A program made the position numbers and the translations under genes. From the IMG/VR virus record IMGVR_UViG_3300042398_001228, positions 1-46,216 of that record: a DNA stretch of 46,216 bases, one strand, 5' to 3'. The notes beneath the pieces are model-generated. The model ran no database searches and had not been told where the DNA came from. It saw only the letters and a program-made list of their open reading frames with translations. Below, one piece after another: positions 2,967-34,305 of the stretch. The DNA comes from a virus. How positions within the stretch are numbered: the stretch's first letter is position 1; each line of letters starts with the position of its first letter.

Positions 2967-3272
2967 TTAAATGTTTTGAAGCATTTGTTCTAACTTCATT
3001 GCCTCTTCTTGAGAAAGACCAGGGTAAGCAGACATTAGATCTTCTACGTCATACTCACGTCTATCATCTAATAAATCTTCATCTTTAAACATTTGAAATA
3101 ATTCTTCAGCGGTTTCAGCTTCACCTGGTTCAGCATAGTCGTTTGGGTCGATTGGTTCTTGGTAGCCAAAATAATCTTCAGGGTCACCTTCCATTTCTTT
3201 TAATTTAACAGCGTATTGGCTTTCAGTAATTACACCTGCCAACATTTGCATTCTAAGAGTTTCTTTATCCAT
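2967..3272 (-). CDS. Small acidic protein with N-terminal ITE tag, probable internal head protein
   Basis: 101 residues, strongly acidic (many Asp and Glu; for example DDRREYDVEDLM). The first 17 residues, MDKETLRMQMLAGVITE, match almost residue for residue the N-termini of three other proteins in this window (3521-4003, 13455-13757 and 13771-14043). The tag ends in I-T-E at residue 17. T4 internal head proteins carry an N-terminal capsid-targeting sequence that the gp21 prohead protease removes after (L/I)-x-E, so I infer packaging into the prohead and cleavage after E17. The rest has no recognised domain; the C-terminal helix (SQEEAMKLEQMLQNI) may mediate self-association. Confidence 0.65.
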   Translation of the reverse strand: MDKETLRMQMLAGVITESQYAVKLKEMEGDPEDYFGYQEPIDPNDYAEPGEAETAEELFQMFKDEDLLDDRREYDVEDLMSAYPGLSQEEAMKLEQMLQNI

Positions 3273-3520: not shown

Positions 3521-4003
3521 TTATCTTAATTTGCTTAAGAAAGCTTGTAATTTCTCTGGGTCGCTAGTGAAGTATTTTTCTCCGCCTTCTCCTTTAAGTC
3601 TGCTTTTAATAGACATAGCAATATTCTTTGGGCCTTCAGGTGAAAGTAAATACTCACCAAATTCAATCATTTCATCATTTCCTTTTTGGGAGAATTCAAA
3701 TGTTTGGAGTATTTTATCTACAGTAGTTCCTACGGTATTTTCATCTAACGGAGTCTTTTCTAATGCTATTTCTTCTAAATCTTTTTCATCTTCCATTTCT
3801 TCATTTAATGAAGTACCTTTTGTAAAATGCTCAAATGCCATTTCGTAATCTGTTTTTTCACGTTCTAGGAATGGGTTATTAATAGCACCTATACCAACAA
3901 AATTTTCGTTAAGTGATTTTTTAGATTCTTCTAATTTTGTTTTATATTCGCTTTCTGTGATGATACCTGAAAGCATTTGCATGCGTAGTTGTTCGTTTGT
4001 CAT
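3521..4003 (-). CDS. Tagged protein (N-terminal ITE tag), probable internal head protein
   Basis: 160 residues. Residues 1-17 (MTNEQLRMQMLSGIITE) are the shared tag, ending at E17 with I-T-E, followed by SEYKTKLEE as in the gene at 13455-13757. The remainder is acidic in the middle and becomes basic near the end (SRLKGEGGEKYFTSDPEKL), with no recognised domain. By analogy with T4 internal proteins it may be targeted into the prohead and trimmed after E17. A TTTATAATAAAA motif lies 8-20 bases before the ATG. Confidence 0.65.
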   Translation of the reverse strand: MTNEQLRMQMLSGIITESEYKTKLEESKKSLNENFVGIGAINNPFLEREKTDYEMAFEHFTKGTSLNEEMEDEKDLEEIALEKTPLDENTVGTTVDKILQTFEFSQKGNDEMIEFGEYLLSPEGPKNIAMSIKSRLKGEGGEKYFTSDPEKLQAFLSKLR

Positions 4004-13454: not shown

Positions 13455-13757
13455 TTATTCTATTTCAATTTTCCAATTATCTTGATTTTGGCGGTCTAAT
13501 TGGTCTTCAAAATCTTGTCCTCTAAAATTGCCAAAAAACTCATCATAAGCAAATTGTTCATCAGACATTAATTTATTTTTAAATTCTTCAAATTCTTCTT
13601 CATCATCGAAGTCATCTACGTCAAAAATAACTGTAAATGGTTCTGGGGTAAATTTAATAGTGACTGAGTCTGAGTCTAGTTCATTTAGCTTGGTTTTATA
13701 TTCACTTTCAGTGATAATGCCTGCTAATTTTTGCATAAGGAGTGCTTTCTTATTCAT
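13455..13757 (-). CDS. Tagged acidic protein (N-terminal ITE tag), probable internal head protein
   Basis: 100 residues. Residues 1-17 (MNKKALLMQKLAGIITE) are the shared tag and are followed by SEYKTKLNEL, almost the same as in the protein at 3521-4003. The rest is very acidic (FDVDDFDDEEEFEEFKNKL) with several phenylalanines, and no known domain is seen. Acidic bodies behind a targeting tag are plausible for scaffold or DNA-mimic proteins in the head, but this is inference. It is the second gene of a two-gene unit whose first member also carries the tag. Confidence 0.65.
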   Translation of the reverse strand: MNKKALLMQKLAGIITESEYKTKLNELDSDSVTIKFTPEPFTVIFDVDDFDDEEEFEEFKNKLMSDEQFAYDEFFGNFRGQDFEDQLDRQNQDNWKIEIE

Positions 13758-13770
13758 TTTATCTAGGTTT

Positions 13771-14043
13771 TTAATTTATATCCCAATTTATTTTTTTTAA
13801 TTTATCTTTAAATTCATAAACAGTATCATCCCTTTCATCCATAGCGGCTGATTCACTACCTGATCCTTTAGCTGCTTTAAAAGCATTTTTCATAGCTGTT
13901 TCAATTTCTTTTTTTAATTCTAATGCTTGTGCTTTTGTTTCAGATGGACCTGTTAATTTAACACCGGTATACAATTCAATAGTTTGTTTTGACTCAGTAA
14001 TAAGACCTGCTAGCATCTGCATTCTTTTAAATTCTTTGTTCAT
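13771..14043 (-). CDS. Tagged protein (N-terminal ITE tag), probable internal head protein
   Basis: 90 residues from the ATG at 14043; an upstream in-frame ATG at 14064 would put seven extra residues before the tag and lies inside the class B motif, so it is rejected. Residues 1-17 are MNKEFKRMQMLAGLITE, the same tag with the same E17. Here the residues after the tag diverge (SKQTIELYTG rather than SEYKTKL). The body is rich in lysine and alanine (KEIETAMKNAFKAAKGSG) and could bind DNA. Prohead targeting and cleavage after E17 are inferred. Confidence 0.65.
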   Translation of the reverse strand: MNKEFKRMQMLAGLITESKQTIELYTGVKLTGPSETKAQALELKKEIETAMKNAFKAAKGSGSESAAMDERDDTVYEFKDKLKKINWDIN

Positions 14044-14051
14044 TTCAGATA

Positions 14052-14068
14052 TTTTATTATACATATTA
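14052..14068 (-). promoter_or_regulatory. Class B upstream motif (putative late promoter)
   Basis: The minus strand reads TAATATGTATAATAAAA, 9 bases before the ATG at 14043 and overlapping the stop codon of the MazG-like gene. It agrees over 15 bases with the motif before the holin candidate at 30397, which makes it one of the best examples. Confidence 0.5.
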
Positions 14069-18882: not shown

Positions 18883-21273
18883 TTATTGAATCATTAATAA
18901 TCGGTATGTGTTTCCGTTTAGGTTTATTGCAAAAGTGTGAGTTGAACTTGCACTTACTTCAGATACAACTGGTCCTAGTGGGTGGGCTCCAGAACCTAGA
19001 GCAAGTTGGCCGTTTGCGTTTGCTGTAGCTAAGGCTCCTAAAATAAGTGAACCTGAATAGTTGCCTGTTTGGGTTTGATGTCCTAATCCTGTATTAAATG
19101 AACCTGTTGTATTATCATATAATGCACTTGCACCTAGAGCAACGTTATTAGATCCTGATATGTTGTTATATAAAGCATTATTTCCTAAAGCTACATTATT
19201 ATTTCCTGTAGTGTTGTAATATAAAGAATAACCACCTAGGGAAAGATTACTAAAACCTGAAGTATTGGTTCTTAAAGCACTAGAGCCGAATGCAATGTTG
19301 CTATTTCCTGTTAAATTACTATATAAAGGTTTATAACCTAGAGCAATATTAAATGATCCTGATGTATTTGCATTTAAAGCCTCTTGTCCTAAAGCAATGT
19401 TTTGATTTCCTATTGTATTGTTATATAAAGTTCCTCTACCTAAAGCAACGTTATTTCGTCCTGTTGTATTATAATATAAAGCTTGGCTACCTAAAGCAAT
19501 ATTGTAATACCCTGTTGTATTATTTCTTAAAGTATCTGGGCCTAAAGCAACATTATTATATCCTGTTGTGTTTGAATATAAAGCACCTACACCTAAAGCG
19601 GTATTGTTGCTCCCCTGGTAATTGTTGCGTAATGCAGATGCTCCTAAAGCAATGTTATTAAAGCCGTATTGGTTATAATATAATGCGTTGAAACCTAAAG
19701 CAATGTTATTACTACCATTATAGTTATAATATAAAGCTTGGCTACCTAAAGCAATATTAAATTGACCATTATAATTACCAGCTAAAGTAAACGGACCTAT
19801 TCCTATGTTTGCTAATCCGTTATTATTGTTTTGTAAAACTCCGAATCCAATCGCTGTGTTAAGTTGGCCTGTTGTATTTCCAAGTAATGCTCCTACACCT
19901 AAGGCTACGTTTGCATTTCCTGTATTGTATACTAATGAATAAGCACCTAAAGAGATGTTATTATCTGCTGCTACGTTGTATAAAGATGAGTAAGCTCCGA
20001 TTGCTATGTTTCTGTCTCCAGTTTGACTATTACGTAAAGCGTCTTTACCAATAGCTGTATTGTAGACACCTGTTGTATTATCATATAACGCACTTGCACC
20101 TAGAGCAACATTATTAGATCCTGATGTGTTGTTATTTAAAGCAGATGCACCTAGAGCAACGTTATTAGACCCTGATGTGTTGTTATTTAAAGCAGATGCA
20201 CCTAGAGCAACGTTATCTGAGCCTGTTGTGTTTTTACTTAACGCATTTGAACCTAAAGCAACGTTATTTGAACCTGTTGTATTTCCAGATAAAGCACTAA
20301 GACCTAAAGCGATATTGTTACTTCCGGATGTGTTTGAGAATAGAGCCGCTCGGCCTAAGCCAATATTGTTTTCACCAGTACTGTAAGTGTAAGTGTATGT
20401 TAAAGGATCATATATTCTTTGCCCTCGCAATGCACTATAACCAAATGCTATATTATTATCAGCAGTATGGTATTGTAAGGCTCTTTTACCTAAAGCAACA
20501 TTATAAGATCCACTAACATTATAATACAAAGCGTTTGTACCTAATGCAACGTTGTTGTATCCAGTTGTGTTTTGTTTTAAAGCATTATATCCTAAAGCAA
20601 CGTTTTGATATCCTGTAGTGTTTTGTTGCAAAGCTTCATAACCTAAAGCAACGTTTCCGTTTCCTGTAGTGTTGTTTTGTAAAGCTTCGTAACCTAATGC
20701 AACGTTATAATCTCCTGTAGTGTTGTTTTGTAGGGCTTCATAACCTATAGCAATGTTATATTCTCCTGTTGTATTATCACGTAAAGTCTCGTAACCTATA
20801 GCAACGTTATAACGTCCTGTTGTGTTATAATATAAAGCTTCTCGGCCTAAAGCAATATTTGATTGGCCTGTTGTATTATAATATAAAGCATCTCGGCCTA
20901 AAGCAATATTATCATTTCCATAAGTATTATATTGTAACGCATCTCTACCTATAGCAATATTGTTATCTCCTTCTATATTTTCTCTTAAAGAATCTCTACC
21001 TAAAGCAATATTGTTAGAGCCACTTATATTATTATATAAAGCATCTCGGCCTAAAGCAATATTATAATTTCCTATTGCGTTTAATTGTAAAGCATTATTG
21101 CCTAAAGCAATATTTGAATATCCTGCTGTATTATTAAGTAAAGTGTTTGGGCCTAAAGCAATATTAGAAGAAATATTACCACCTCCTAAACCTAAGTTTA
21201 TTCCGTTAATTGAGCCTGAAGGTACTTCTAAAGATCCGCTTACTAGTATTAATGATCCTGATAAAATTGGCAT
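18883..21273 (-). CDS. Tail fibre or adhesin with about 41 YadA-head-like repeats
   Basis: 796 residues. After a 36-residue N-terminal part (residues 1-20 contain GSLILVSGSLEVPSGS), about 41 tandem repeats of 17 residues run to residue 741. The consensus is N-(I/V)-A-L-G-x4-L-x2-N-T-T-G-x2, which resembles the left-handed beta-roll repeats of YadA-type adhesin heads. Such proteins are homotrimers that bind host surfaces. Repeats vary in sequence but hardly in length; one near residue 280 carries an insertion (DPLTYTYTYSTGEN). A non-repeat C-terminus of 55 residues closes the fibre. The N-x-T tripeptides and YY pairs recur many times. It heads the transcript that also carries the sulfation cassette, behind a class B motif. 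Confidence 0.85.
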   Translation of the reverse strand: MPILSGSLILVSGSLEVPSGSINGINLGLGGGNISSNIALGPNTLLNNTAGYSNIALGNNALQLNAIGNYNIALGRDALYNNISGSNNIALGRDSLRENIEGDNNIAIGRDALQYNTYGNDNIALGRDALYYNTTGQSNIALGREALYYNTTGRYNVAIGYETLRDNTTGEYNIAIGYEALQNNTTGDYNVALGYEALQNNTTGNGNVALGYEALQQNTTGYQNVALGYNALKQNTTGYNNVALGTNALYYNVSGSYNVALGKRALQYHTADNNIAFGYSALRGQRIYDPLTYTYTYSTGENNIGLGRAALFSNTSGSNNIALGLSALSGNTTGSNNVALGSNALSKNTTGSDNVALGASALNNNTSGSNNVALGASALNNNTSGSNNVALGASALYDNTTGVYNTAIGKDALRNSQTGDRNIAIGAYSSLYNVAADNNISLGAYSLVYNTGNANVALGVGALLGNTTGQLNTAIGFGVLQNNNNGLANIGIGPFTLAGNYNGQFNIALGSQALYYNYNGSNNIALGFNALYYNQYGFNNIALGASALRNNYQGSNNTALGVGALYSNTTGYNNVALGPDTLRNNTTGYYNIALGSQALYYNTTGRNNVALGRGTLYNNTIGNQNIALGQEALNANTSGSFNIALGYKPLYSNLTGNSNIAFGSSALRTNTSGFSNLSLGGYSLYYNTTGNNNVALGNNALYNNISGSNNVALGASALYDNTTGSFNTGLGHQTQTGNYSGSLILGALATANANGQLALGSGAHPLGPVVSEVSASSTHTFAINLNGNTYRLLMIQ
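19051..21165 (-). repeat. 51-bp coding repeats of the tail fibre
   Basis: About 41 copies of a 51-base unit encode the 17-residue beta-roll repeat. Most copies differ at many positions, but neighbours at about 20090-20220 are nearly identical, pointing to recent duplication there. Such tracts can gain or lose units by recombination and so change fibre length. Confidence 0.9.
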
Positions 21274-21793: not shown

Positions 21794-22567
21794 TTAAACT
21801 CCTCTTTTAGTGTCAAATGCAATGATGTGATCTCTTCCTGTCATATTGTATCCTTTTTCAGCACACATATCAAATACAATAGGATACATTTTAATTAACT
21901 CTTCACGAGTGTCTCCTGCAGGCATAATATATGTTTTAGATTTTGGGATGTTTAACAACACACGAAATTCTTCAATTTCTTCTAAATTATATCCTGTACC
22001 ATCCCAAACTGGTTTGTAGTGGTAATCTGTATGATAGGCTAACATTTGTTTGATTGTATCAAGATTTAATCTAAATTTATTGTGTTGATCAATCATTTTT
22101 TGGTCCACAATCGCTCCTTGAGGCGTAACAGCACCAAGTACGGGTATAGAATTATCAAATTTTGGGCTGAGAGATATAAGACCCAAAGGATAGTCAGTAG
22201 CGATAAAGTGACTCCCTTCAGTTTCAATCGTAATAAGAATGTCTCTTTCATTTGCAAAGTGTGTAAGTTCGTTTACAAGTGCAGGATGCATTGTAGGTGA
22301 ACCACCTGTTAACATCATTTCCTTAATATGAGGATTTTCATCATAAATACGAATAATATTGTTGAACGTAAATGTTCCTTTTTCAGGGTGGATGCTCGTA
22401 TACCAGCTATCACACCAACCGCCTTCACCAAAGTAGCATCTGTGGGTACAACCAGTAGTTCTTACTGCAATTGTAGGGCGGCCAAACCGACTGCCTTCGG
22501 ATTGTACGCATCGATATAGTTCTACTATTGGTAATACTTTATTGTAATCTTCTATTCTATTCTTCAT
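21794..22567 (-). CDS. queE: 7-carboxy-7-deazaguanine synthase QueE (radical SAM)
   Basis: 257 residues from the ATG at 22567; an upstream ATG at 22594 in the same frame would add nine residues, and both overlap the QueD gene. ELYRCVQSEGSRFGRPTIAVR is the QueE start (IFYSLQGEG-like), followed by GCTHRCYFGEGGWCDSWYTS, which provides three cysteines (C-x3-C-x7-C) for the radical SAM 4Fe-4S cluster and the CD(S/T) ending. MMLTGGSPTMHP is the GGEP-like SAM site. It turns 6-carboxy-tetrahydropterin into 7-carboxy-7-deazaguanine. The second cysteine spacing is longer than the classical CxxxCxxC. Confidence 0.9.
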   Translation of the reverse strand: MKNRIEDYNKVLPIVELYRCVQSEGSRFGRPTIAVRTTGCTHRCYFGEGGWCDSWYTSIHPEKGTFTFNNIIRIYDENPHIKEMMLTGGSPTMHPALVNELTHFANERDILITIETEGSHFIATDYPLGLISLSPKFDNSIPVLGAVTPQGAIVDQKMIDQHNKFRLNLDTIKQMLAYHTDYHYKPVWDGTGYNLEEIEEFRVLLNIPKSKTYIMPAGDTREELIKMYPIVFDMCAEKGYNMTGRDHIIAFDTKRGV

Positions 22568-23021
22568 AACTAGCTGAATTTCTTTCATGTTCATAAACTT
22601 CTACTTTGATAGCTTTTACTCTACCTTCTGTTTCTTCTTTTAAGAATGCATTTATTACATAATATAAATGTTCTGCAAATTTTTCACAGCCTGTATTAGG
22701 TAAAATTCTTAATTGGATTATACCATCTTCATCCATTTGTTTAAATTTATCTAAATATGGGTCATCTAATGCAATTATTGTAGTGTGATCTAATAAAAAC
22801 GTAAAATAGTCTTTTGGAGACATACCTGCAATTTGAGTTTTTGCACGTTTCATACCACCAAAATCCCATACCCAATTTCTATGATCTAATTCCCCTTCAA
22901 ACCATACTCTAAATGATACAGCATATCCATGTAAGAATTTACAATGAGTATCTTCTGCTTTCCATTGACGGAAACATGCTGAGTATCCGTCAAATAATTT
23001 TGTTGAATTATATTTTGCCAT
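22557..23021 (-). CDS. queD: 6-carboxy-tetrahydropterin synthase QueD (divergent)
   Basis: 154 residues. The order of conserved parts is kept: a catalytic cysteine in THCKFLHGY, WVWDFGGMK for the first turn, LLDHTTIIALDDP, NTGCEKFAEHLY and VEVYEHERNSASY with the pterin-binding glutamate. It acts after GTP cyclohydrolase. The zinc site is odd: canonical QueD has FSAAH and HGH, whereas here these are YSACF and HGY, so two of the three zinc histidines are replaced. Related phage proteins with RQW and HGY exist to my recollection, so this may be a subfamily rather than decay. It begins one base after QueC. Confidence 0.85.
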   Translation of the reverse strand: MAKYNSTKLFDGYSACFRQWKAEDTHCKFLHGYAVSFRVWFEGELDHRNWVWDFGGMKRAKTQIAGMSPKDYFTFLLDHTTIIALDDPYLDKFKQMDEDGIIQLRILPNTGCEKFAEHLYYVINAFLKEETEGRVKAIKVEVYEHERNSASYEE

Positions 23022-23022
23022 T

Positions 23023-23850
23023 TTAATTATTATGTGTTTCTAATACTTTTGTTACTTGTTCTACAACAAATTCCCAATACACAGGACCTTCTTCGTCTGC
23101 ATATCCTGCAGGATCAGGGCGACCTAATTTAATAAATGCTTCTACTCGTTCAACTGAACTAGCTGATTTATAATCTGAGAACCAGTCTCCCCATATTTCA
23201 TCATCTGTAAATGTATGGGGGATAAAAATTGGTTTGTAAGATGTCATTGTTCTTGAATACACTTCGTTAAAGTCTAAACCTAAATCTTCACACAATATTT
23301 CTCCATCTTGTAAAATAGTGAATTTATCACCTTCAAGATATGGTGTAAAATAACCTACTTTCTCAGAACCCCAATTACCAATTCTAAATGCTGCGTCATC
23401 TGCATCTCTAAATTCTTGTCTACAATCAGGATAAATTGCATGATCACCTGCATGTATTCCTAAGGCAATGTCACATTGTTCACCTGTTTGATCAGCTTTA
23501 GATAAAGCAACTGCTTGCACAATAGATGCAAATATTTTGTTTCGATTTGGAACAACTGTTGCTTTCATATTTTCTTCAGCATAGTGTCCTTCAGGTACTT
23601 CATCTCCGCCTGTTACAAGTGCTGAGTTAAGTAGATCTGTTAAGCCATCTAATTTAATAACACGGTAATTAATGTCATATTTGTAACATAGATAATCTAC
23701 TAATGATTGAGCGCGTTCAAGCTCAACTCTATGTTTTTGTCCATAATCAAATGAAATTGCTGTTACTGTATTGTACTCTTTCAAGCAGCGAAGTAATAAT
23801 GTGCTGGAATCCATTCCTCCAGATAATGATATTACTACATGTTTTTCCAT
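23023..23850 (-). CDS. queC: 7-cyano-7-deazaguanine synthase QueC (zinc site missing)
   Basis: 275 residues. The ATP-pyrophosphatase loop SGGMDSS is at 9-15, then ISFDYGQKHRVELERA, VVPNRNKIFASIV and GDHAIYPDCRQEF, all typical of QueC, which makes preQ0 from 7-carboxy-7-deazaguanine. The usual C-terminal zinc ribbon (SC-x-CGxCxxCxxR) is not there: the corresponding stretch reads TSYKPI and then SASSVERVEAF, with serines in place of the cysteines. The start overlaps the 57-residue gene by 16 bases. The enzyme should bind ATP, but its stability or product may differ from host QueC. Confidence 0.88.
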   Translation of the reverse strand: MEKHVVISLSGGMDSSTLLLRCLKEYNTVTAISFDYGQKHRVELERAQSLVDYLCYKYDINYRVIKLDGLTDLLNSALVTGGDEVPEGHYAEENMKATVVPNRNKIFASIVQAVALSKADQTGEQCDIALGIHAGDHAIYPDCRQEFRDADDAAFRIGNWGSEKVGYFTPYLEGDKFTILQDGEILCEDLGLDFNEVYSRTMTSYKPIFIPHTFTDDEIWGDWFSDYKSASSVERVEAFIKLGRPDPAGYADEEGPVYWEFVVEQVTKVLETHNN

Positions 23851-26692: not shown

Positions 26693-27706
26693 TTACATAT
26701 AATTTATAGTATTATCATCTTTTTTTCTAAGATTATTTAGCTTTTCTTTTAACGGAGCAACAGCTGCTTCTATCCTACGACCTATAGCTCCAGATTTTTG
26801 TATTCTTTGAATTTCGTTTTCTACAGCTTTTATTTCTTCTGAGGTAGAAGGGGTAGGTTCTGGTGTAGATTCTTTTATTTTAGGTTCACCGTATATGTTT
26901 GTTTTAGGTTTTAGGTTGTTAAATGCCTGGTTAGTTGCGATTACTAATATGATTGCTAGAGGGTCGAATACAAATATAATTAATAGTATAAACCAATTAG
27001 CTACGTCTTTAACATCACTTCCTGTGATTTCACTTACATATTTTACAGCCCCTAGTTCATTTCCGAGTTCGGTTTCAGATTCCATATTTAAAACTTGAAC
27101 CTCTAAATTTGTTATACTATCATTTAAAGCATCTATTTTTGAGGAAATAGTGTCCCTTCTAGTTTGTGCTTCTTTTAATTGTGCCTCAAATGCTTTTCTA
27201 TTACCAGTATTAGCTTTAGTTGTAACTTGTCCTGTTTTTCTATCTACAGATTGAGTTGTTGTATTTGTAGAGAGAGCGTTTCGCAACTGGGATATGTCTT
27301 TGTCTAAAATAGATTTTTCTGTAGTTAGTTCTACTTTAATGTCTTCAAATCGTGTCTTTTTAACTTCAACATTTGCAATTTGTTTATCACTAATGTTCAT
27401 TTTAGCAATATTTTCTTGAAATCCAGTTGTTAATAAACCATAAATGCCTAGAGATGTTATAAATGATAATATAATAAGTGCTATTGTCAAATAGATTTTT
27501 AGACCAGTATATGTTTTTTTCCATTGGTCATGTAAGTAGGTTGCTATTGCTATTTTAGATACTTCTAGAAATGAACCCATTACCATAACAGGTATAGCTA
27601 CACTAGCAAATAAAATAGATAAACCTAAAACACTATAATAAGCTGCTGTTGTGGATAAACCAATAGCACAGAATAATAAAAAATAAGGTAAAAATTTTTC
27701 TTTCAT
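26693..27706 (-). CDS. Multi-spanning membrane protein with periplasmic coiled coil
   Basis: 337 residues. Three hydrophobic helices (about residues 7-50 and 70-95) precede a long coiled coil from about 115 to 220 (KKTRFEDIKVELTTEKSILD, then TGNRKAFEAQLKEAQTRRD and LNDSITNLEVQVLNMESETE). A further helix (WFILLIIFVFDPLAIILVIA) and a basic cytoplasmic tail with a second helical pair (VENEIQRIQKSGAIGRRIEA) follow. I recall very similar proteins in marine phages but no known function. The layout suggests a spanin-like or superinfection-related membrane device; neither is shown. Flanked by a terminator behind the fibre protein and a class A motif. Confidence 0.6.
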   Translation of the reverse strand: MKEKFLPYFLLFCAIGLSTTAAYYSVLGLSILFASVAIPVMVMGSFLEVSKIAIATYLHDQWKKTYTGLKIYLTIALIILSFITSLGIYGLLTTGFQENIAKMNISDKQIANVEVKKTRFEDIKVELTTEKSILDKDISQLRNALSTNTTTQSVDRKTGQVTTKANTGNRKAFEAQLKEAQTRRDTISSKIDALNDSITNLEVQVLNMESETELGNELGAVKYVSEITGSDVKDVANWFILLIIFVFDPLAIILVIATNQAFNNLKPKTNIYGEPKIKESTPEPTPSTSEEIKAVENEIQRIQKSGAIGRRIEAAVAPLKEKLNNLRKKDDNTINYM

Positions 27707-27771: not shown

Positions 27772-28242
27772 TTATACTATTCGAATTTGGATAAAGTTTC
27801 CGTTTTTATACAACCCACCTACAGGCACTGAACCAGCAGCAGCGGCAGTATCATCAGCATATTCTCCTAAACCTGCTACATAATTTACAACATCAAAGAA
27901 AGATGCTGTTTGAGCTGTAGTTACATAAGATGCTGTTTGAGCTGTAGTTACATAAGATGCTGTTGCAGCTGTTCCTAATACACTTCCTGTTAAATTAGCA
28001 GTAATACCTGCGGTTACAGTTAAAGAACCAGTAATTGAAGCGTTTCCGTTAAGGGAACCATCCCAATCTCCTGTTACACCTGTTAAACCACTACCATCAC
28101 CTGCAAAAGCAGACGCAGTTACTGCAGTTGAAACGATTAGTGAACCTGTTATAGCGTGAGATCCTGTAAAATAACGGAAGTTATTATCCATTTCATTAAT
28201 AGTCAACGCGGATCCTTTTACTTCTCTAAGAGTTAATGCCAT
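27772..28242 (-). CDS. Tail fibre-type structural protein
   Basis: 156 residues. The N-terminus MALTLREVKGSALTINEMDN is a typical phage fibre attachment sequence (LREVKGSPLTxxELDNNF). Low-complexity serine, threonine and alanine repeats follow (GSLTVTAGITANLTGSVLG and a nine-residue tandem, YVTTAQTAS, twice). It probably forms a short trimeric fibre or collar part. It is transcribed from a class B motif and closed by a GC-rich terminator, so it is monocistronic. Confidence 0.7.
   Translation of the reverse strand: MALTLREVKGSALTINEMDNNFRYFTGSHAITGSLIVSTAVTASAFAGDGSGLTGVTGDWDGSLNGNASITGSLTVTAGITANLTGSVLGTAATASYVTTAQTASYVTTAQTASFFDVVNYVAGLGEYADDTAAAAGSVPVGGLYKNGNFIQIRIV
27901..27954 (-). repeat. 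Tandem 27-bp direct repeat
   Basis: Two exact 27-base units, followed by a partial third, encode YVTTAQTAS twice within the fibre-type protein. The exact identity suggests a recent duplication. Confidence 0.85.
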
Positions 28243-28817: not shown

Positions 28818-28830
28818 TTTTATTATGATT
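28818..28830 (-). promoter_or_regulatory. Class B-like upstream motif (variant)
   Basis: The minus strand reads AATCATAATAAAA, 5 bases before the ATG at 28812. It keeps ATAATAAAA but has CAT in place of TAT. Confidence 0.3.
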
Positions 28831-29635
28831 TGATATCATTTGATTCAATCAAAGTATAGGTAAATTTGTTTCCGTTTGCTGTTTTCGCTTTACGACAAAT
28901 AGCCATAAACTCTTCAAAATCTGCAGAACGTTTAAACACTTGACATCCTTCTGACCAATTTTCAACATATGTCGAGTCTGCACCAGCTTTATGTATGTTG
29001 ATACCAAATAAACCTTCTTGAATTGATTTTTCATCATATGTCATATCTTTATTTGGATCACGGAATACTTTAACTGCTTTGTTTTGTCCTAATGCTTCAT
29101 ATTTTCCAGCATGTAAACGCATGATATGTGAGTCAATATATTGCCCTTCAACCAATCGTGCAACACCAGCTTTGTTTCCGTATTGCATTACACCCTTTGT
29201 TCCAGGATCTGTTGTAGCAGGCCAACAATGGAATTTTTCTTCACCTCCAACTGTATAAGATAATGTGATATGGTCATCAAATACATTAGTTACTTTTTGT
29301 CCAGTTGATGAATTGCGGATTCCAATAATATTTAAGATGTAATCACCACCTTCAAACCATTTATATCCTTTAGTTTTTACTGCTTCTTCAACTTGTCCTT
29401 TAGTATATTTAGGAGATGCTGTTGGTTTAGCTACTGCTGGTTTAGCTTCTACAACTATTCCCATTTTAGCTAATGTTGCGGGACCGACTACACCATCTGC
29501 TGTTAAACCATTTTTAGTTTGCCATGCTTTAACTGCTTCTTCTGTTTTAGGGCCAAAATTTCCTACTTGTTCTACACCTAAAACGGCTTGAACTTTTTTA
29601 ACTAATTCGTTATTGTCTCCTTTTTTTAGTACCAT
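28823..29635 (-). CDS. Peptidoglycan-binding and L,D-transpeptidase-like protein
   Basis: 270 residues. The N-terminal 60 form a peptidoglycan-binding type 1 domain (LVKKVQAVLGVEQVGNFGPK, then VKAWQTKNGLTADGVVGPATL). An alanine-proline linker follows. The C-terminal part contains FGINIHKAGADS and VENWSEGCQVFKRS, which match the His ... S-x-G-C catalytic arrangement of L,D-transpeptidase-like (YkuD) enzymes. It may act as an endolysin, cleaving or exchanging peptide cross-links. No signal peptide is visible. It lies next to the lysozyme and holin genes. Confidence 0.75.
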   Translation of the reverse strand: MVLKKGDNNELVKKVQAVLGVEQVGNFGPKTEEAVKAWQTKNGLTADGVVGPATLAKMGIVVEAKPAVAKPTASPKYTKGQVEEAVKTKGYKWFEGGDYILNIIGIRNSSTGQKVTNVFDDHITLSYTVGGEEKFHCWPATTDPGTKGVMQYGNKAGVARLVEGQYIDSHIMRLHAGKYEALGQNKAVKVFRDPNKDMTYDEKSIQEGLFGINIHKAGADSTYVENWSEGCQVFKRSADFEEFMAICRKAKTANGNKFTYTLIESNDIKS

Positions 29636-29651
29636 AATTAACTTATTATTA

Positions 29652-30110
29652 TTATTTTTTAAAATATAATTGTGATTCTGCTTCTCTTCTTCTTACTAAA
29701 CCCTTTAAAGTTTTACCTCCAGCTTTTACCCACTTCATAAATTCTAAATGAATGGTTTCATCTTCTGGATTAGCATTTACTTTTTTAAGTAAAGTAGAAG
29801 ATTTTAAATTTGCTGGGCCTAAGTTGTATGCAAATGACACTAATGCATCAAACTGGTTCTGTGTGATAGTATCTACACAGTAGCTGTCTACATATTTTTC
29901 AAAGCTTACTAACATGTTTTGCAACAATACTGTTCCTTCTTGTTCAGTAATAGCTTTATCAACCATTGTTACTTTTTTCCCATCAGGGTAAAATGTAGCT
30001 CCGTATCCAATTGTAGGGATGCCTGCAGGGCATTTGTAAGGGGCAGATCTAAATCCTTCAAAGAATTTGATCATTTCAATTCCGGCAGTGCCTGTTTTAG
30101 TTATTTTCAT
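29652..30110 (-). CDS. Lysozyme-type endolysin (GH24)
   Basis: 152 residues, close to T4 lysozyme (164). FFEGFRSAPYKCPAGIPTIGYGAT holds the catalytic triad: glutamate, then cysteine where T4 has aspartate, then threonine before the IGYG loop. The E-C-T version is found in many phage lysozymes. LVSFAYNLG is the second family signature. It hydrolyses the peptidoglycan glycan chain. No signal sequence is visible, so it needs a holin; a holin candidate lies two bases upstream. Confidence 0.93.
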   Translation of the reverse strand: MKITKTGTAGIEMIKFFEGFRSAPYKCPAGIPTIGYGATFYPDGKKVTMVDKAITEQEGTVLLQNMLVSFEKYVDSYCVDTITQNQFDALVSFAYNLGPANLKSSTLLKKVNANPEDETIHLEFMKWVKAGGKTLKGLVRRREAESQLYFKK

Positions 30111-30112
30111 AA

Positions 30113-30397
30113 TTAACCTAATTCTTCTTCGTTAGTAGCTTCTTCTTCTTTTTTTTCTTCTACTTGTTTTTTTAATTTAAAAATTCTTCCTGCTGTTGTA
30201 ATACCAAAAGCACCTAAAGTAAGAATCATAAATCCATCAAAAATAAACTCTTTAATAATTAATTCTTTACTCCAAATACCAGTTGCTACATCAACTAGTA
30301 ATACAAATACCATTGCAAAAAACGATATCACTCCTACAAATGCTTGCTCGTTGATGTGATTATCATCCGAAATCAATTCTCTAAAAAATTTTTTCAT
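30113..30397 (-). CDS. Holin candidate
   Basis: 94 residues with two hydrophobic helices (AFVGVISFFAMVFVLLVDVA, residues 19-38, and FIFDGFMILTLGAFGITTAG, about 51-70), a short turn between them and a strongly charged C-terminus (KKQVEEKKEEEATNEEELG). This is the class II holin plan. It ends two bases before the lysozyme gene, the classical place for a holin. No sequence family is recognised, so the call rests on topology and context. Confidence 0.6.
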   Translation of the reverse strand: MKKFFRELISDDNHINEQAFVGVISFFAMVFVLLVDVATGIWSKELIIKEFIFDGFMILTLGAFGITTAGRIFKLKKQVEEKKEEEATNEEELG

Positions 30398-30405
30398 AAT
30401 GTTTC

Positions 30406-30420
30406 TTTTTATTATACATA
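30406..30420 (-). promoter_or_regulatory. Class B upstream motif (putative late promoter)
   Basis: The minus strand reads TATGTATAATAAAAA, 8 bases before the holin candidate ATG. It is preceded by TTTAA and is one of the best matches to the motif. Confidence 0.5.
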
Positions 30421-30441: not shown

Positions 30442-31548
30442 TTATTTTTTAGAATCCTGTGTAGCATACTTAATACCCATAATTGTACCAACTATTGAAA
30501 AAGCATTTGTTAATAATACACTAAACATATTACTCCAAGTTGATCCTATTATTTGTGTGTCTTGTCCTGTTATAATGGCCGCCCAATATAATACTGTTGT
30601 TACAACCCCAACTCCAACTATAACAGCTAATGCAACTTTAACAATGATCTTTATTAATTCACCCTGACTTTTTTTCATTATTACATCTAAATCATTCAAA
30701 GCAGCATCTTTTTCTATCTCTATTGCATTTTTAAGTTTTTCAGAGTTCTCAAGTTCTATTTGTAAATTCTTTGAAAGATCCTCTATCTTCTTCTCATTGT
30801 TTATAGCATCAGTAACATCAGTTGCAATTTTAACTACGTCAGTAATATTTCCTTTACTGTCCATTACAGGATTATAAGATGCTTGTAAGTAAACAGTAGA
30901 ACCATCTACTTTTCTTCTTTCAAATATCCCATCAAAGTATTTTCCTTTTCTTAAACTTTCCCAAAACTTAGTATACTCATCAGATTTAGAATATTCATAA
31001 CTTACAAAAACACTATGATGTTTCCCAATGACTTTATCTTTTTCATTGGCTTTATATCCCATAGTTTCTAAAAATATAGAATTTACATCTGTTATAAACC
31101 CATCAATATTGAAACTAATAAGAGCTGTACTTCTATTAATGGCATCTATTTGTTTTTTACTCTTAATAATTGCAGTAATGTCAGTAGCAACTTTCATTAT
31201 TTTAGTTATTTTACCACTTTCATCAAAAATAGGATTATAAGTTGCTTGTAAGTTAATAAGACTTCCATCCTTTCTTCTTCTTTCAAACTCACCAGTATAG
31301 TACTTTCCACTTCTTAAGATGTCCCAAAACTTTTCATATTCAAGTGATCTTGAATAATCTTCACATACAAAAATACTATGGTGTTTACCAATGATATCAT
31401 CATGATTACCTTTACCATAACCCATTGCTTCTAAAAAGATATCATTAACTCCTAATATAACGCCATTAAGGTCAAAGTAAATAAGAGCATTACTTCTATT
31501 AATAGCCTCTATCCTGCTTAATAGCTCTTCTTTTGGTAGATTTTTCAT
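30442..31548 (-). CDS. Double-PAS sensor fused to two membrane helices
   Basis: 368 residues. Two PAS-PAC units, at about 15-125 and 137-247, are clearly duplicated: both have INRS-x-ALI, the FLExMGY segment, GKHHS(I/V)FV, a (F/S)ERR(R/K) turn, LQA(T/S)YNP and (A/T)TD(I/V)T. They resemble the redox- or ligand-sensing PAS domains of chemotaxis receptors. A coiled coil (about 250-298) leads to two membrane helices (299-327 and 339-359) and a short tail. There is no kinase, cyclase or receptor output domain. Upstream of holin and endolysin genes, it may sense cell state and influence membrane disruption; this is inference. PAS fold and membrane topology are secure. Confidence 0.8.
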   Translation of the reverse strand: MKNLPKEELLSRIEAINRSNALIYFDLNGVILGVNDIFLEAMGYGKGNHDDIIGKHHSIFVCEDYSRSLEYEKFWDILRSGKYYTGEFERRRKDGSLINLQATYNPIFDESGKITKIMKVATDITAIIKSKKQIDAINRSTALISFNIDGFITDVNSIFLETMGYKANEKDKVIGKHHSVFVSYEYSKSDEYTKFWESLRKGKYFDGIFERRKVDGSTVYLQASYNPVMDSKGNITDVVKIATDVTDAINNEKKIEDLSKNLQIELENSEKLKNAIEIEKDAALNDLDVIMKKSQGELIKIIVKVALAVIVGVGVVTTVLYWAAIITGQDTQIIGSTWSNMFSVLLTNAFSIVGTIMGIKYATQDSKK

Positions 31549-31602: not shown

Positions 31603-31616
31603 CAATTATACATATG
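31603..31616 (-). promoter_or_regulatory. Class B-like upstream motif (half)
   Basis: The minus strand reads CATATGTATAATTG, 55 bases before the PAS-protein start, with the TATGTATAAT half of class B but no AAAA. It follows 8 bases after the NrdA stop. Confidence 0.3.
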
Positions 31617-31623
31617 AAATTAC

Positions 31624-33348
31624 CTACCCCTCACAAGCAACACAGTTGTCGTCTCGAGAAATATTATCTCCACGCAAAATCGATTCACTTCGCATGTAAT
31701 AAAGTGTTTTAATACCTTCTTTCCAAGCCAATTTATGCACATCACTAATATATTTTGGTGAATCAGATGGATCAAATGTTAAGTTCAAAGAAATTGCTTG
31801 GTCAACATATTTTTGTCTAATTCCGTTTTGGCGAACTACTTCGTATGGGTTAATTTCTTTAAATGTTAAGAATATTTCTTTTTCCTCATCAGTTAAAATA
31901 TAATCAGGCAATCCCATAACAGAACCTTTATCACGAGCAATTTGTTCCCAAACGCTATCAATATTATATCCTTTAGATTCAAGTAAACGCTCTAATGTTG
32001 GGTTTTTCTTAATAAATGTGCCTTTAGCTGTTTTTAAATTATAAACATTTGCAGGAATAGGTTCAATTGAAGGTGATACACCTCCTGAAATGTGAGCATT
32101 TGATACTGTAGGAGCGATTGCTAAATGATGCGTATGTCTTAAACCTGTGCCTTTACACCATTCTGGTTCACCATAAAGTTCTGCTTGATCACGAGATGCT
32201 TTTAATGCTTCTTTTTCAATAAAATCAAACATCAAACGTGTGTAAGAATTTGCTTGTAAACCTGCAAATGGAATATTTTTTTCTTGTAAAAATGTATGCC
32301 AACCTAAAACACCAATACCAATTGCTCTACCTTTAGATGCTGAGCGGTATGTGTTTTCCATGAATCGGATATTTTTAGAGCGGTCAATAAATTCTTGTAA
32401 TACACCCTCTAAAAACCAACATGTTAATTCAGGTAAAGTCATATTATTTTCAAAACGATATTCCTTCCATTCATCCCAACGAGCTAAATTCAAAGAAGAT
32501 AAACAACAAATAAATGAATGTAATTCATCTGTGTATAATGAAATCTCAGAACAAATATTTGTCATTGAAACATGTAAGTTATTCTTTTTATATGCTTCCG
32601 GGTTTGCATTGTTTACATTATCCTCAAACATAATATAAGGTTCACCTGTTTCAAGTCGTGTTTTTAAAATTTCACCCCATAATTTTAATGCTTTAGGATC
32701 TTTTTCTTCAACACGATTCATAAATGCATCATCAATTACAACACATTGATGCATATTTAAACATTGACGATTAACATCACCTTTTGGACGACGAATCATT
32801 AAAAATTCTTCAATATCTGGGTGGTTAATATTTAAGTTAACTGATGCTGCACCTCGTCTAACTGAGCCTTGATTTGTAGCTAAAATGGTTGAATCATAAA
32901 TCTTAATCCATGGAACAACTCCCTCACTTACACCATTACCTGAGATTGTTTTACCGCGTCCTCTGATTCGAGATACACCAATCCCAACTCCACCACCTTG
33001 AGACGATAAACGCATTAATTCTGAGTTAGCTAATGCGATCCCTTCAATAGAATCATCAGTATCAATCCCAAAACATGAGATAGGCATTCCACGTTCAGTA
33101 CCTAAATTTGATAAAACAGGTGAAGCTAAACATAGCCAGTTTTTAGTTATTGCTTCTAAAAAGAATGGATATAAATCTTTACGCTTTAAGCGGCGTGAAG
33201 CTGCTCTTGATACTCGTTTAAATGCTCCAAAAACATCTTCATCAGGTAATAAATACCCCTTTGAAATCATCGATAATGAGATTTCATTCATCCATTCAGG
33301 GTAATGTTTACCCTTAATCCAATTTGTTGTGTCTACTTGTATACTCAT
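31624..33348 (-). CDS. nrdA: Ribonucleotide reductase large subunit NrdA, short form
   Basis: 574 residues, shorter than host NrdA (about 750) and lacking the N-terminal ATP-cone that gives overall activity control. The catalytic set is intact: the active-site cysteine C92 in MPISCFG, N264-x-C266-x-E268 in TNICSEIS, the partner cysteine near FICCLSS, paired tyrosines in TLYYMRS, and a C-terminal redox pair CVACEG. With NrdB it reduces ribonucleotides to deoxyribonucleotides. Loss of the ATP-cone removes dATP inhibition, which suits massive phage DNA synthesis. It follows NrdB by six bases. Confidence 0.96.
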   Translation of the reverse strand: MSIQVDTTNWIKGKHYPEWMNEISLSMISKGYLLPDEDVFGAFKRVSRAASRRLKRKDLYPFFLEAITKNWLCLASPVLSNLGTERGMPISCFGIDTDDSIEGIALANSELMRLSSQGGGVGIGVSRIRGRGKTISGNGVSEGVVPWIKIYDSTILATNQGSVRRGAASVNLNINHPDIEEFLMIRRPKGDVNRQCLNMHQCVVIDDAFMNRVEEKDPKALKLWGEILKTRLETGEPYIMFEDNVNNANPEAYKKNNLHVSMTNICSEISLYTDELHSFICCLSSLNLARWDEWKEYRFENNMTLPELTCWFLEGVLQEFIDRSKNIRFMENTYRSASKGRAIGIGVLGWHTFLQEKNIPFAGLQANSYTRLMFDFIEKEALKASRDQAELYGEPEWCKGTGLRHTHHLAIAPTVSNAHISGGVSPSIEPIPANVYNLKTAKGTFIKKNPTLERLLESKGYNIDSVWEQIARDKGSVMGLPDYILTDEEKEIFLTFKEINPYEVVRQNGIRQKYVDQAISLNLTFDPSDSPKYISDVHKLAWKEGIKTLYYMRSESILRGDNISRDDNCVACEG

Positions 33349-33354
33349 AATGTT

Positions 33355-34305
33355 TTATAAATCGCTCCAGTCAGCTGTTGATTTTGAATAATCTGTTACT
33401 CGATTTGCAAAGAAATCTTGATGTGTTTTACCACTTGTTAAATGCCCAAACCATTCCATTTGTTTTAAAAGGTTAGGATCAATATCATTATAAATTGGAT
33501 TATAACCTAATTCAACTAATTTTTGATTAGCACGTTCTTTAATAAAGTTTTTCAATTGGTCTTTGTTTAAACCTTCAATACTTCCCATTTCAAATGCTTT
33601 ATCTATAAAATCAAATTCTAACTTTACAGACAAATCACAAGCTTCATAAATTGCTTGAGTCATTTCTTTAGTATCTAATTCTGGGCACTCTGAAAGTAAA
33701 GTTCTGTATAACCAACAACCAGCTTTTGAATGTAATGATTCATCACGTACACTCCATTCAACGATTTGGCCTGTCCCTTTCATTAAGTTACGTAATTGGA
33801 AAGACATTAATATTGCGAATGAAGAGAACAAATTTACACCTTCTGTAAATGCCGAGAATATAGCTAATGAAAGTGCTTTATCATATAATGTTTCTCCTGG
33901 TTGTTCAACTAAACGATCAATTTTAGCTTTTGCTTCTTCATCTTCCATGAATGCTTCAAAATCATCTAAACCAAGTTCTTCATTTAGGCGAGCATAAGCT
34001 TCAGCATGAATTGATTCAAAATCAGCGAATACACACGCCATAGCTTTGATTTCATGTTTGGGGAACCATACCGCTACCTTTGTTGACCAGTAGTCGTTTA
34101 CATACGTCTCAGTTTGAGCAAATGACTTTAAAATATTACCAATCAAATTTTTCTCCGATTCGGTTAGTTTAAGTTTCCAATCATTCAAGTCTGAAGAGAG
34201 AGGCACTTCATCTGCTAGCCAATGGGCTCTATGTTGGTCTTTGTAAAATTCAAACGCGATTTGATATTCAAACGGTTTGTAATGGGGTCTTAGTTCTGTA
34301 ATCAT
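33355..34305 (-). CDS. nrdB: Ribonucleotide reductase small subunit NrdB
   Basis: 316 residues. Iron ligands and radical tyrosine are visible: E66, E97 and H100 with Y104 in ESIHAEAYARL, E155 in FTEGVNLF, and E189 with H192 in RDESLH. The tyrosine is seven residues after the glutamate, as in class Ia NrdB, so a tyrosyl radical is expected. It ends FANRVTDYSKSTADWSDL, with a C-terminus suited to docking on NrdA. The start overlaps the helicase stop by 4 bases. Confidence 0.96.
   Translation of the reverse strand: MITELRPHYKPFEYQIAFEFYKDQHRAHWLADEVPLSSDLNDWKLKLTESEKNLIGNILKSFAQTETYVNDYWSTKVAVWFPKHEIKAMACVFADFESIHAEAYARLNEELGLDDFEAFMEDEEAKAKIDRLVEQPGETLYDKALSLAIFSAFTEGVNLFSSFAILMSFQLRNLMKGTGQIVEWSVRDESLHSKAGCWLYRTLLSECPELDTKEMTQAIYEACDLSVKLEFDFIDKAFEMGSIEGLNKDQLKNFIKERANQKLVELGYNPIYNDIDPNLLKQMEWFGHLTSGKTHQDFFANRVTDYSKSTADWSDL

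Follow-up and report, generated by a model that had tools for sequence, protein, structure and literature searches.

What does a phage do with a sensor protein whose only output appears to be a pair of membrane helices? The question is raised by a gene for a 368–amino acid (aa) protein that lies next to lysis genes in the window, that is, the whole 46,216-nucleotide stretch of viral DNA analyzed here (IMG/VR record IMGVR_UViG_3300042398_001228).

A tandem PAS protein ending in two membrane helices

A preliminary description of this locus had depicted near-duplicate tandem PAS domains followed by a coiled coil and two membrane helices, without an enzyme. This architecture is borne out. Pfam detects PAS_3 in two stretches of the protein (E = 9.7e-26), the presence of two PAS domains is agreed on by Pfam, NCBIfam, a PDB sequence search, and AlphaFold2, and the two domains share 57.8% identity (E = 7.5e-51). 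The AlphaFold2 model runs from PAS to PAS to a long helix (residues 246-291) and then to two membrane-length helices (295-327 and 332-363), which contain the transmembrane (TM) segments seen by hydropathy (Table 1). Searches with Pfam and NCBIfam profiles found no kinase, GGDEF/EAL, or methyl-accepting chemotaxis protein (MCP) signaling domain. Comparison with 47 homologous genes gave a mean pS of 0.456 and a mean pN of 0.057; the open reading frame (ORF) is thus not a chance one. The gene is under strong purifying selection.

The gene stands, as had been described, directly upstream of the holin candidate and the endolysin: the genes follow one another on the same strand, after a gap of 44 bp, and the endolysin is recognized by its profile (Phage_lysozyme, E = 2e-42). 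The 94-aa neighbor with two TM segments is a holin candidate only by its size, topology, and position, and it matched no holin profile in Pfam, PHROG, or NCBIfam.

Table 1. Features of the PAS gene, its product, and its surroundings (positions in the window; residues of the 368-aa protein).
Feature	Position	Strand	Basis or remark
PAS-PAS-coiled coil-2TM gene, 368 aa	30442..31548	-	ATG start; ORF, Pfam PAS, AlphaFold2, purifying selection
PAS domain 1, residues ~13-128	31165..31512	-	Pfam
PAS domain 2, residues ~134-250	30799..31149	-	Pfam; 58% identical to PAS1
Coiled-coil signaling helix, residues 246-291	30676..30813	-	AlphaFold2; conserved into effector (EFF) family
Output module common to relay's EFF, residues 258-367	30448..30777	-	Alignment; 60% identity with L171 EFF
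TM helix 1, residues 302-320	30589..30645	-	Hydropathy; AlphaFold2 helix 295-327
TM helix 2, residues 341-359	30472..30528	-	Hydropathy; inside near-invariant segment, residues 337-362
Holin candidate, 94 aa, 2 TM, next gene downstream of PAS gene	30113..30397	-	Position and topology; 44-bp gap
GH24 endolysin	29652..30110	-	Phage_lysozyme E 2e-42
Peptidoglycan-binding lysis-associated protein	28823..29635	-	PG_binding_1 E 1.6e-13; PHROG endolysin matches
NrdA and NrdB (context)	31624..34305	-	PAS gene stands next after NrdA
TATGTATAAT motif 5′ of PAS gene, possible late promoter	31605..31614	-	10-mer repeated upstream of holin candidate
TATGTATAAT motif 5′ of holin candidate	30411..30420	-	10-mer identical to that at PAS gene

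The motif TATGTATAAT is enriched 5′ of four late-looking genes in the window. Its conservation is confined to close relatives, and we therefore do not count it as strong evidence. Two classes of promoter-like sequence occur in the intergenic regions of the window: TTTTC(G/T)TATATT(A/T), found 5′ of replication and metabolic genes, and TAnnTATAAT, found 5′ of fiber-like genes (18883-21273 and 27772-28242), the holin candidate, and the PAS gene. Elsewhere in the window, four small proteins (2967-3272, 3521-4003, 13455-13757, and 13771-14064; all on the - strand) have in common an N-terminal motif similar to LRMQMLAGIITESEYKTKL. Its I-T-E step resembles what we take to be the (L/I)xE site of T4-type prohead proteases, and the four may be processed internal proteins. 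The region 21794-23850 (-) encodes proteins that, by eye, look like QueC, QueD, and QueE of the queuosine/7-deazaguanine precursor pathway.

A fusion of a kinase sensor and its partner effector

The C-terminal module of the protein occurs in two forms: the PAS fusion and a three-gene relay of kinase, regulator, and effector. At L111, L130, and L144, for example, a lysozyme gene is followed by a PAS histidine kinase, a receiver-only response regulator, and an effector (EFF) of ~190 aa, whose C terminus is the same coiled coil and hairpin as in the window protein (relay examples, L111:6942-9758, L130:930-3559, and L156-L309). The preliminary description had seen only membrane helices as output. 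There are indeed two helices, but they form a conserved module common to the relay and are not just any helices.

Residues 1-257 of the window protein match residues 1-257 of the kinase at relay locus L171, starting from Met1 (49% identity over 260 columns, E = 3e-86), and residues 258-367 match residues 81-197 of that locus's EFF (60% identity over 117 columns, E = 3e-42). The window protein thus reads as the sensor half of a kinase joined to the output of its partner effector, a one-protein variant of a two-component system. Relative to the relay, the fusion skips the kinase core, the regulator, and the EFF N terminus. The PAS pair may have been inherited as such or may have come from a duplication: window PAS1 is 57% identical to PAS1 of the L171 kinase, and window PAS2 is closer to PAS1 of that kinase (55% identical) than to its PAS2 (45%). 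When a tree is built from the hairpin region, the PAS fusions group together in one clade of 60 rows (support 100/100), and a single change divides them from every EFF row; this one clade argues for a single origin of the fusion.

The window protein has no HATPase_c domain, and a scan of neighboring ORFs in the window record, which is a fragment, found no kinase or receiver. Each of the 25 positive viral records tested carries exactly one copy of the module, and none carries both forms. At six loci (L210, L212, L217, L222, L224, and L226), the relay trio follows NrdA, as the PAS gene does in the window. This occurrence of one form or the other, together with the shared position after NrdA, points to functional equivalence of fusion and relay. 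Some related phages lack the PAS gene in the interval from NrdA (or other genes) to the holin (L135:4378-5738, L084:358-1703, and L087:4448-5733); they carry there two one-TM proteins and overlapping inner/outer spanin-like genes.

A phage-encoded two-component relay

The relay form (L156-L309) has the sequence features of a two-component system. Its kinases carry HATPase_c (E down to 3e-15) and the H-box RHDxxxGIN (84 of 89; the remaining five appear to be truncated reads), and its regulators match Response_reg and conserve the DD, acceptor D, and K residues. The sensor parts of the kinases vary, with PAS, GAF plus PAS, or no recognized sensor domain; TM segments also occur among the sensor domains of relay operons, besides PAS and GAF. 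The predicted structure of EFF is helical throughout: a small N-terminal part leads into a long coiled coil and then into the hairpin. A fold search of the PDB gave no significant neighbor for it.

The regulator was also used as bait, so that loci were not selected on the hairpin. EFF lies downstream in 54 of 54 usable loci, at ≤30 bp in 52, and a kinase lies upstream in all 45 loci with enough upstream sequence. As far as gene content tells, the relay partners are obligate. Kinase-receiver-effector operons of phages number at least several hundred in IMG/VR.

The relay resembles bacterial two-component systems in its PAS/GAF sensors, H-box, HATPase_c domain, and receiver with a phospho-acceptor aspartate. 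Unlike them, it is phage-encoded, and its output is a virus-specific two-helix membrane protein from the same operon, not a DNA-binding domain. The window protein departs further, retaining sensor and output only.

A common family of uncultured T4-like phages

The idea of such a device had been called uncommon, but the family is common in uncultured phages. Scanning IMG/VR with the 368-aa protein yielded 245 confirmed relatives, of which the best 80 are 83-98% identical to it. EFF yielded 248 confirmed relatives, the response regulator at least 548 matches, and a profile of the hairpin at least 518 carriers of the C-terminal two-helix module. Three loci (L114-L116) have a single-PAS version of 251 aa.

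Cellular genomes gave a different result. A close relative was found in 1 of 84,980 bacterial and archaeal species genomes, using two short TM2 patterns that may miss diverged relatives. The contig concerned (L235) looks viral, and we therefore reject a bacterial origin of the module. Isolate phages were rejected as carriers too: in INPHARED, neither the effector nor the regulator had a match, and matches to the kinase were PAS-only, to Aer and MCPs. An INPHARED entry labeled "Bacteriophage sp." (MT836939.1; L388) encodes an MCP with tandem PAS domains, a GGDEF protein, and a resolvase; this unannotated entry appears to be a bacterial contig, its INPHARED match being an MCP gene. The DNA polymerase of the window is 26-32% identical to those of the best-listed isolates, mainly T4-like cyanophages. 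Absence from INPHARED, near-absence from cellular genomes, and this distant polymerase therefore assign the module to uncultured T4-like phages. Among anti-phage defense families, nothing relevant matched.

Linkage to lysis genes

Lysis genes recur around relatives of the PAS gene, while the remaining genome differs. After removal of identical proteins, and with ~2.9 kb required on both sides, a lysis gene lies ≤3 kb away in 31 of 32 fusion loci and 35 of 57 relay loci, counts that are not independent, as the loci are related by descent. Among the fusion loci, a lytic enzyme is present in 30 and a holin in 28, with 27 having the two together; L026 alone has no recognizable lysis gene within this distance. 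The expectation is ~5-6% of positions, taken from two long contigs, of 160 and 116 kb, that were examined over their entire length and in which recognizable lysis genes occur only around the PAS gene. The proposal of a PAS-gated membrane device tied to lysis genes is thus supported for the fusion.

The preliminary description had counted relatives far from lysis genes against such a device. Fusions give almost no such case, but the relay does, with no recognizable lysis gene ≤3 kb away in 22 of 57 loci. Some of these lysis-distant copies adjoin other genes that are virion-like by appearance. In related phages, where the same gene order was to be looked for, the lysis genes recur, but at the fusion loci their order varies widely (PAS-holin-GH24-M15, holin-PAS-GH24-M15, GH19-PAS-holin, and holin-PAS-PGB-holin). 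The genes may lie together because they are co-transcribed with late genes, rather than for a functional reason.

Holins were mostly labeled through our own homology clusters, by position and topology. Bona fide members of Phage_holin_4_1 and Phage_holin_10 are present in several loci, and the PAS protein therefore normally has a separate holin beside it. For three loci (L014, L022, and L006), where one of these two families occurs, the PAS gene is ruled out as the only holin of the phage.

Two further observations concern these neighborhoods. A 337-aa membrane protein with a coiled coil (window 26693-27706, -; 20 clustered copies) recurs 3′ of the lysis genes, both in phages with the fusion and in phages with the relay. 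Near relay copies that stand apart from lysis genes are small proteins resembling, by eye, the late sigma factor gp55 (L188:2937-3662, L192:6036-6410, and L235:6673-7374); the two that were tested had no Pfam match.

A near-invariant membrane module

The second TM helix lies in a near-invariant segment (residues 337-362, TWSNMFxxLLTNAFSIVGTIMGxKYA) in which residues are fixed and third codon positions vary. We rejected the possibility that this is a search artifact, since the regulator-bait loci are also conserved here, though not strictly invariant. The segment is near-invariant across phages whose neighboring holins differ in family. A fitted holin partner should co-vary, and the pattern is thus better explained by self-assembly or by action on a conserved membrane target in the host. 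Both TM helices are predicted, and their orientation would follow from PAS domains that are presumably cytosolic.

The C terminus was to be compared with small holin-like proteins, and a match to receptor membrane segments had been named as evidence against the proposed device. Neither resemblance was found. No profile in Pfam, PHROG, or NCBIfam matched the hairpin, no holin profile matched EFF, and profile comparison with the neighboring two-TM holin candidate gave a probability of 8.7%, on which grounds we rejected membership in a known holin family. A receptor TM segment was rejected as well, the best PDB fold match of the effector being an insignificant one to a segment of HtrII (E = 7). 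The hairpin is a near-invariant membrane module without known relative. Class II holins and pinholins share with it a predicted two-helix hairpin, polar TM2 residues, and a location in the lysis operon; its ends would be cytosolic, as theirs are, if the PAS domains are. The PAS and EFF proteins differ from them in lacking a profile match, in their length of 190-370 aa, which includes a large cytosolic portion for sensing or for binding the regulator, and in the separate holin that usually accompanies them.

These properties bear on two alternatives to a gated hairpin that itself sets lysis time. One is an antiholin-like role in lysis inhibition, in which the hairpin binds the holin and delays or releases lysis upon superinfection or a host-state signal, as RI and RIII of T4 act on T. 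In favor of it, holin and endolysin genes surround the PAS gene, many loci have a recognizable separate holin, and T4 provides a precedent for sensing-dependent lysis inhibition (PMC11413866, PMC6832632). We nonetheless consider this role unlikely, given that TM2 is near-invariant across differing holin families, unlike a fitted partner, and that the predicted cytosolic sensor of the window protein contrasts with the periplasmic RI of T4 (PMC8385771). No homology to the T4 lysis-inhibition proteins was found, and the window sensor is a PAS pair on a C-terminal hairpin; if the lysis role is true, the likeness to T4 (holin T, antiholins RI and RIII) would lie in phage-encoded sensing coupled to lysis timing.

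The other alternative is a role outside lysis. The effector could modify a conserved host inner-membrane target or exclude superinfecting phage, with its place in the lysis operon marking it simply as a late gene. This fits the 22 of 57 relay loci that have no known lysis gene nearby, and the near-invariant TM2 could touch a conserved host protein. We consider such a role unlikely as well: the fusion stands beside lysis genes in nearly all loci and in many gene orders, against ~6% expected.

Sensor domains

The window PAS domains are similar to MmoS in sequence (PDB 3ewk, E = 4.7e-10) and in fold (3ewk, E = 1.7e-16), and Aer also matches (8dik, E = 5e-7). Fold neighbors of PAS1 are MmoS, DosP, and NifL, and those of the PAS domains include FAD- and heme-PAS sensors. 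IVNSGxH, which we take to be a signature of flavin-type PAS domains, was seen in 20 of the 89 phage kinases and is absent from the window protein. The protein thus resembles Aer, BdlA-type MCPs, and MmoS/NifL in PAS fold and sequence; unlike them, it has no HAMP, MCP, or kinase domain, and its membrane helices are C-terminal.

Interference with the host's own receptors had been suggested, and the PAS domains are indeed of a type found in MCPs (the MCP in MT836939.1 is 42.6% identical over window residues 13-250). A decoy or modulator of host chemotaxis or redox receptors is, however, very improbable: the PAS pair aligns with a phage histidine kinase from Met1 (49%), there is no MCP signaling domain, and the hairpin is unlike receptor membrane segments. 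That the fusion is a decaying, functionless deletion product of the relay, as its missing kinase, regulator, and effector N terminus might suggest, is scarcely credible and largely refuted by the selection signal, and the clade is internally diverse (60 rows) with 245 relatives in the IMG/VR scan.

A possible control of lysis timing

We favor the reading, with a probability of roughly 55%, that a signal-gated hairpin controls lysis timing and that the window protein is a one-component transducer of T4-like phages. In the ancestral-type system, the phage kinase presumably senses a signal and phosphorylates the receiver-only regulator, which would in turn act on the membrane effector. The PAS domains of the fusion would drive the output directly via the coiled coil, a usual transmitter of PAS signals. 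The hairpin most likely sets lysis time from inside the lysis operon. Holins in general trigger upon loss of the proton-motive force, and a gated depolarizer could therefore trigger any holin. Under the mechanism that we favor, copies of the hairpin assemble with one another into a membrane lesion or channel that is gated by the signal, and the changed proton-motive force would trigger any holin that the phage has, or the closed hairpin would delay it.

Lysis control is likely rather than proved, because the relay lies outside a recognizable lysis cassette in 22 of 57 loci. It is chiefly these loci that speak against a role in lysis alone. We see about an even chance that T4-like phages possess a two-component system of their own, with a condensed form, in which a membrane effector decides lysis time from the energy, redox, or ligand state of the host.

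Lysis timing is commonly attributed to a clock built into the holin, and T4 lysis inhibition is the classic example of a lytic phage that adapts it to the surroundings. VqmA-Qtip and arbitrium are transcriptional switches of temperate phages. The system described here would resemble VqmA-Qtip of VP882, arbitrium, and polylysogeny modules (PMC10432266) in reading signals ahead of lysis; it differs from these transcriptional switches in its membrane output and in belonging to phages with a T4-like replication set. Among open-licence papers, we found no report of phage-encoded two-component lysis control. As kinds, two-component systems, PAS sensors, and lysis control are familiar; what is to our knowledge undescribed is a phage relay ending in a virus-specific hairpin at lysis genes, together with its natural one-protein condensate.

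The fusion provides a Rosetta-stone link, placing kinase and membrane hairpin in one pathway. If the proposed role is true, the system would be a phosphorelay-controlled lysis clock with a gated membrane effector of unknown type. The widespread relay and its phosphorelay-free fusion would make the reading of host physiology by phages before lysis directly testable. Our results suggest that phages may sense the state of the host ahead of bursting the cell.
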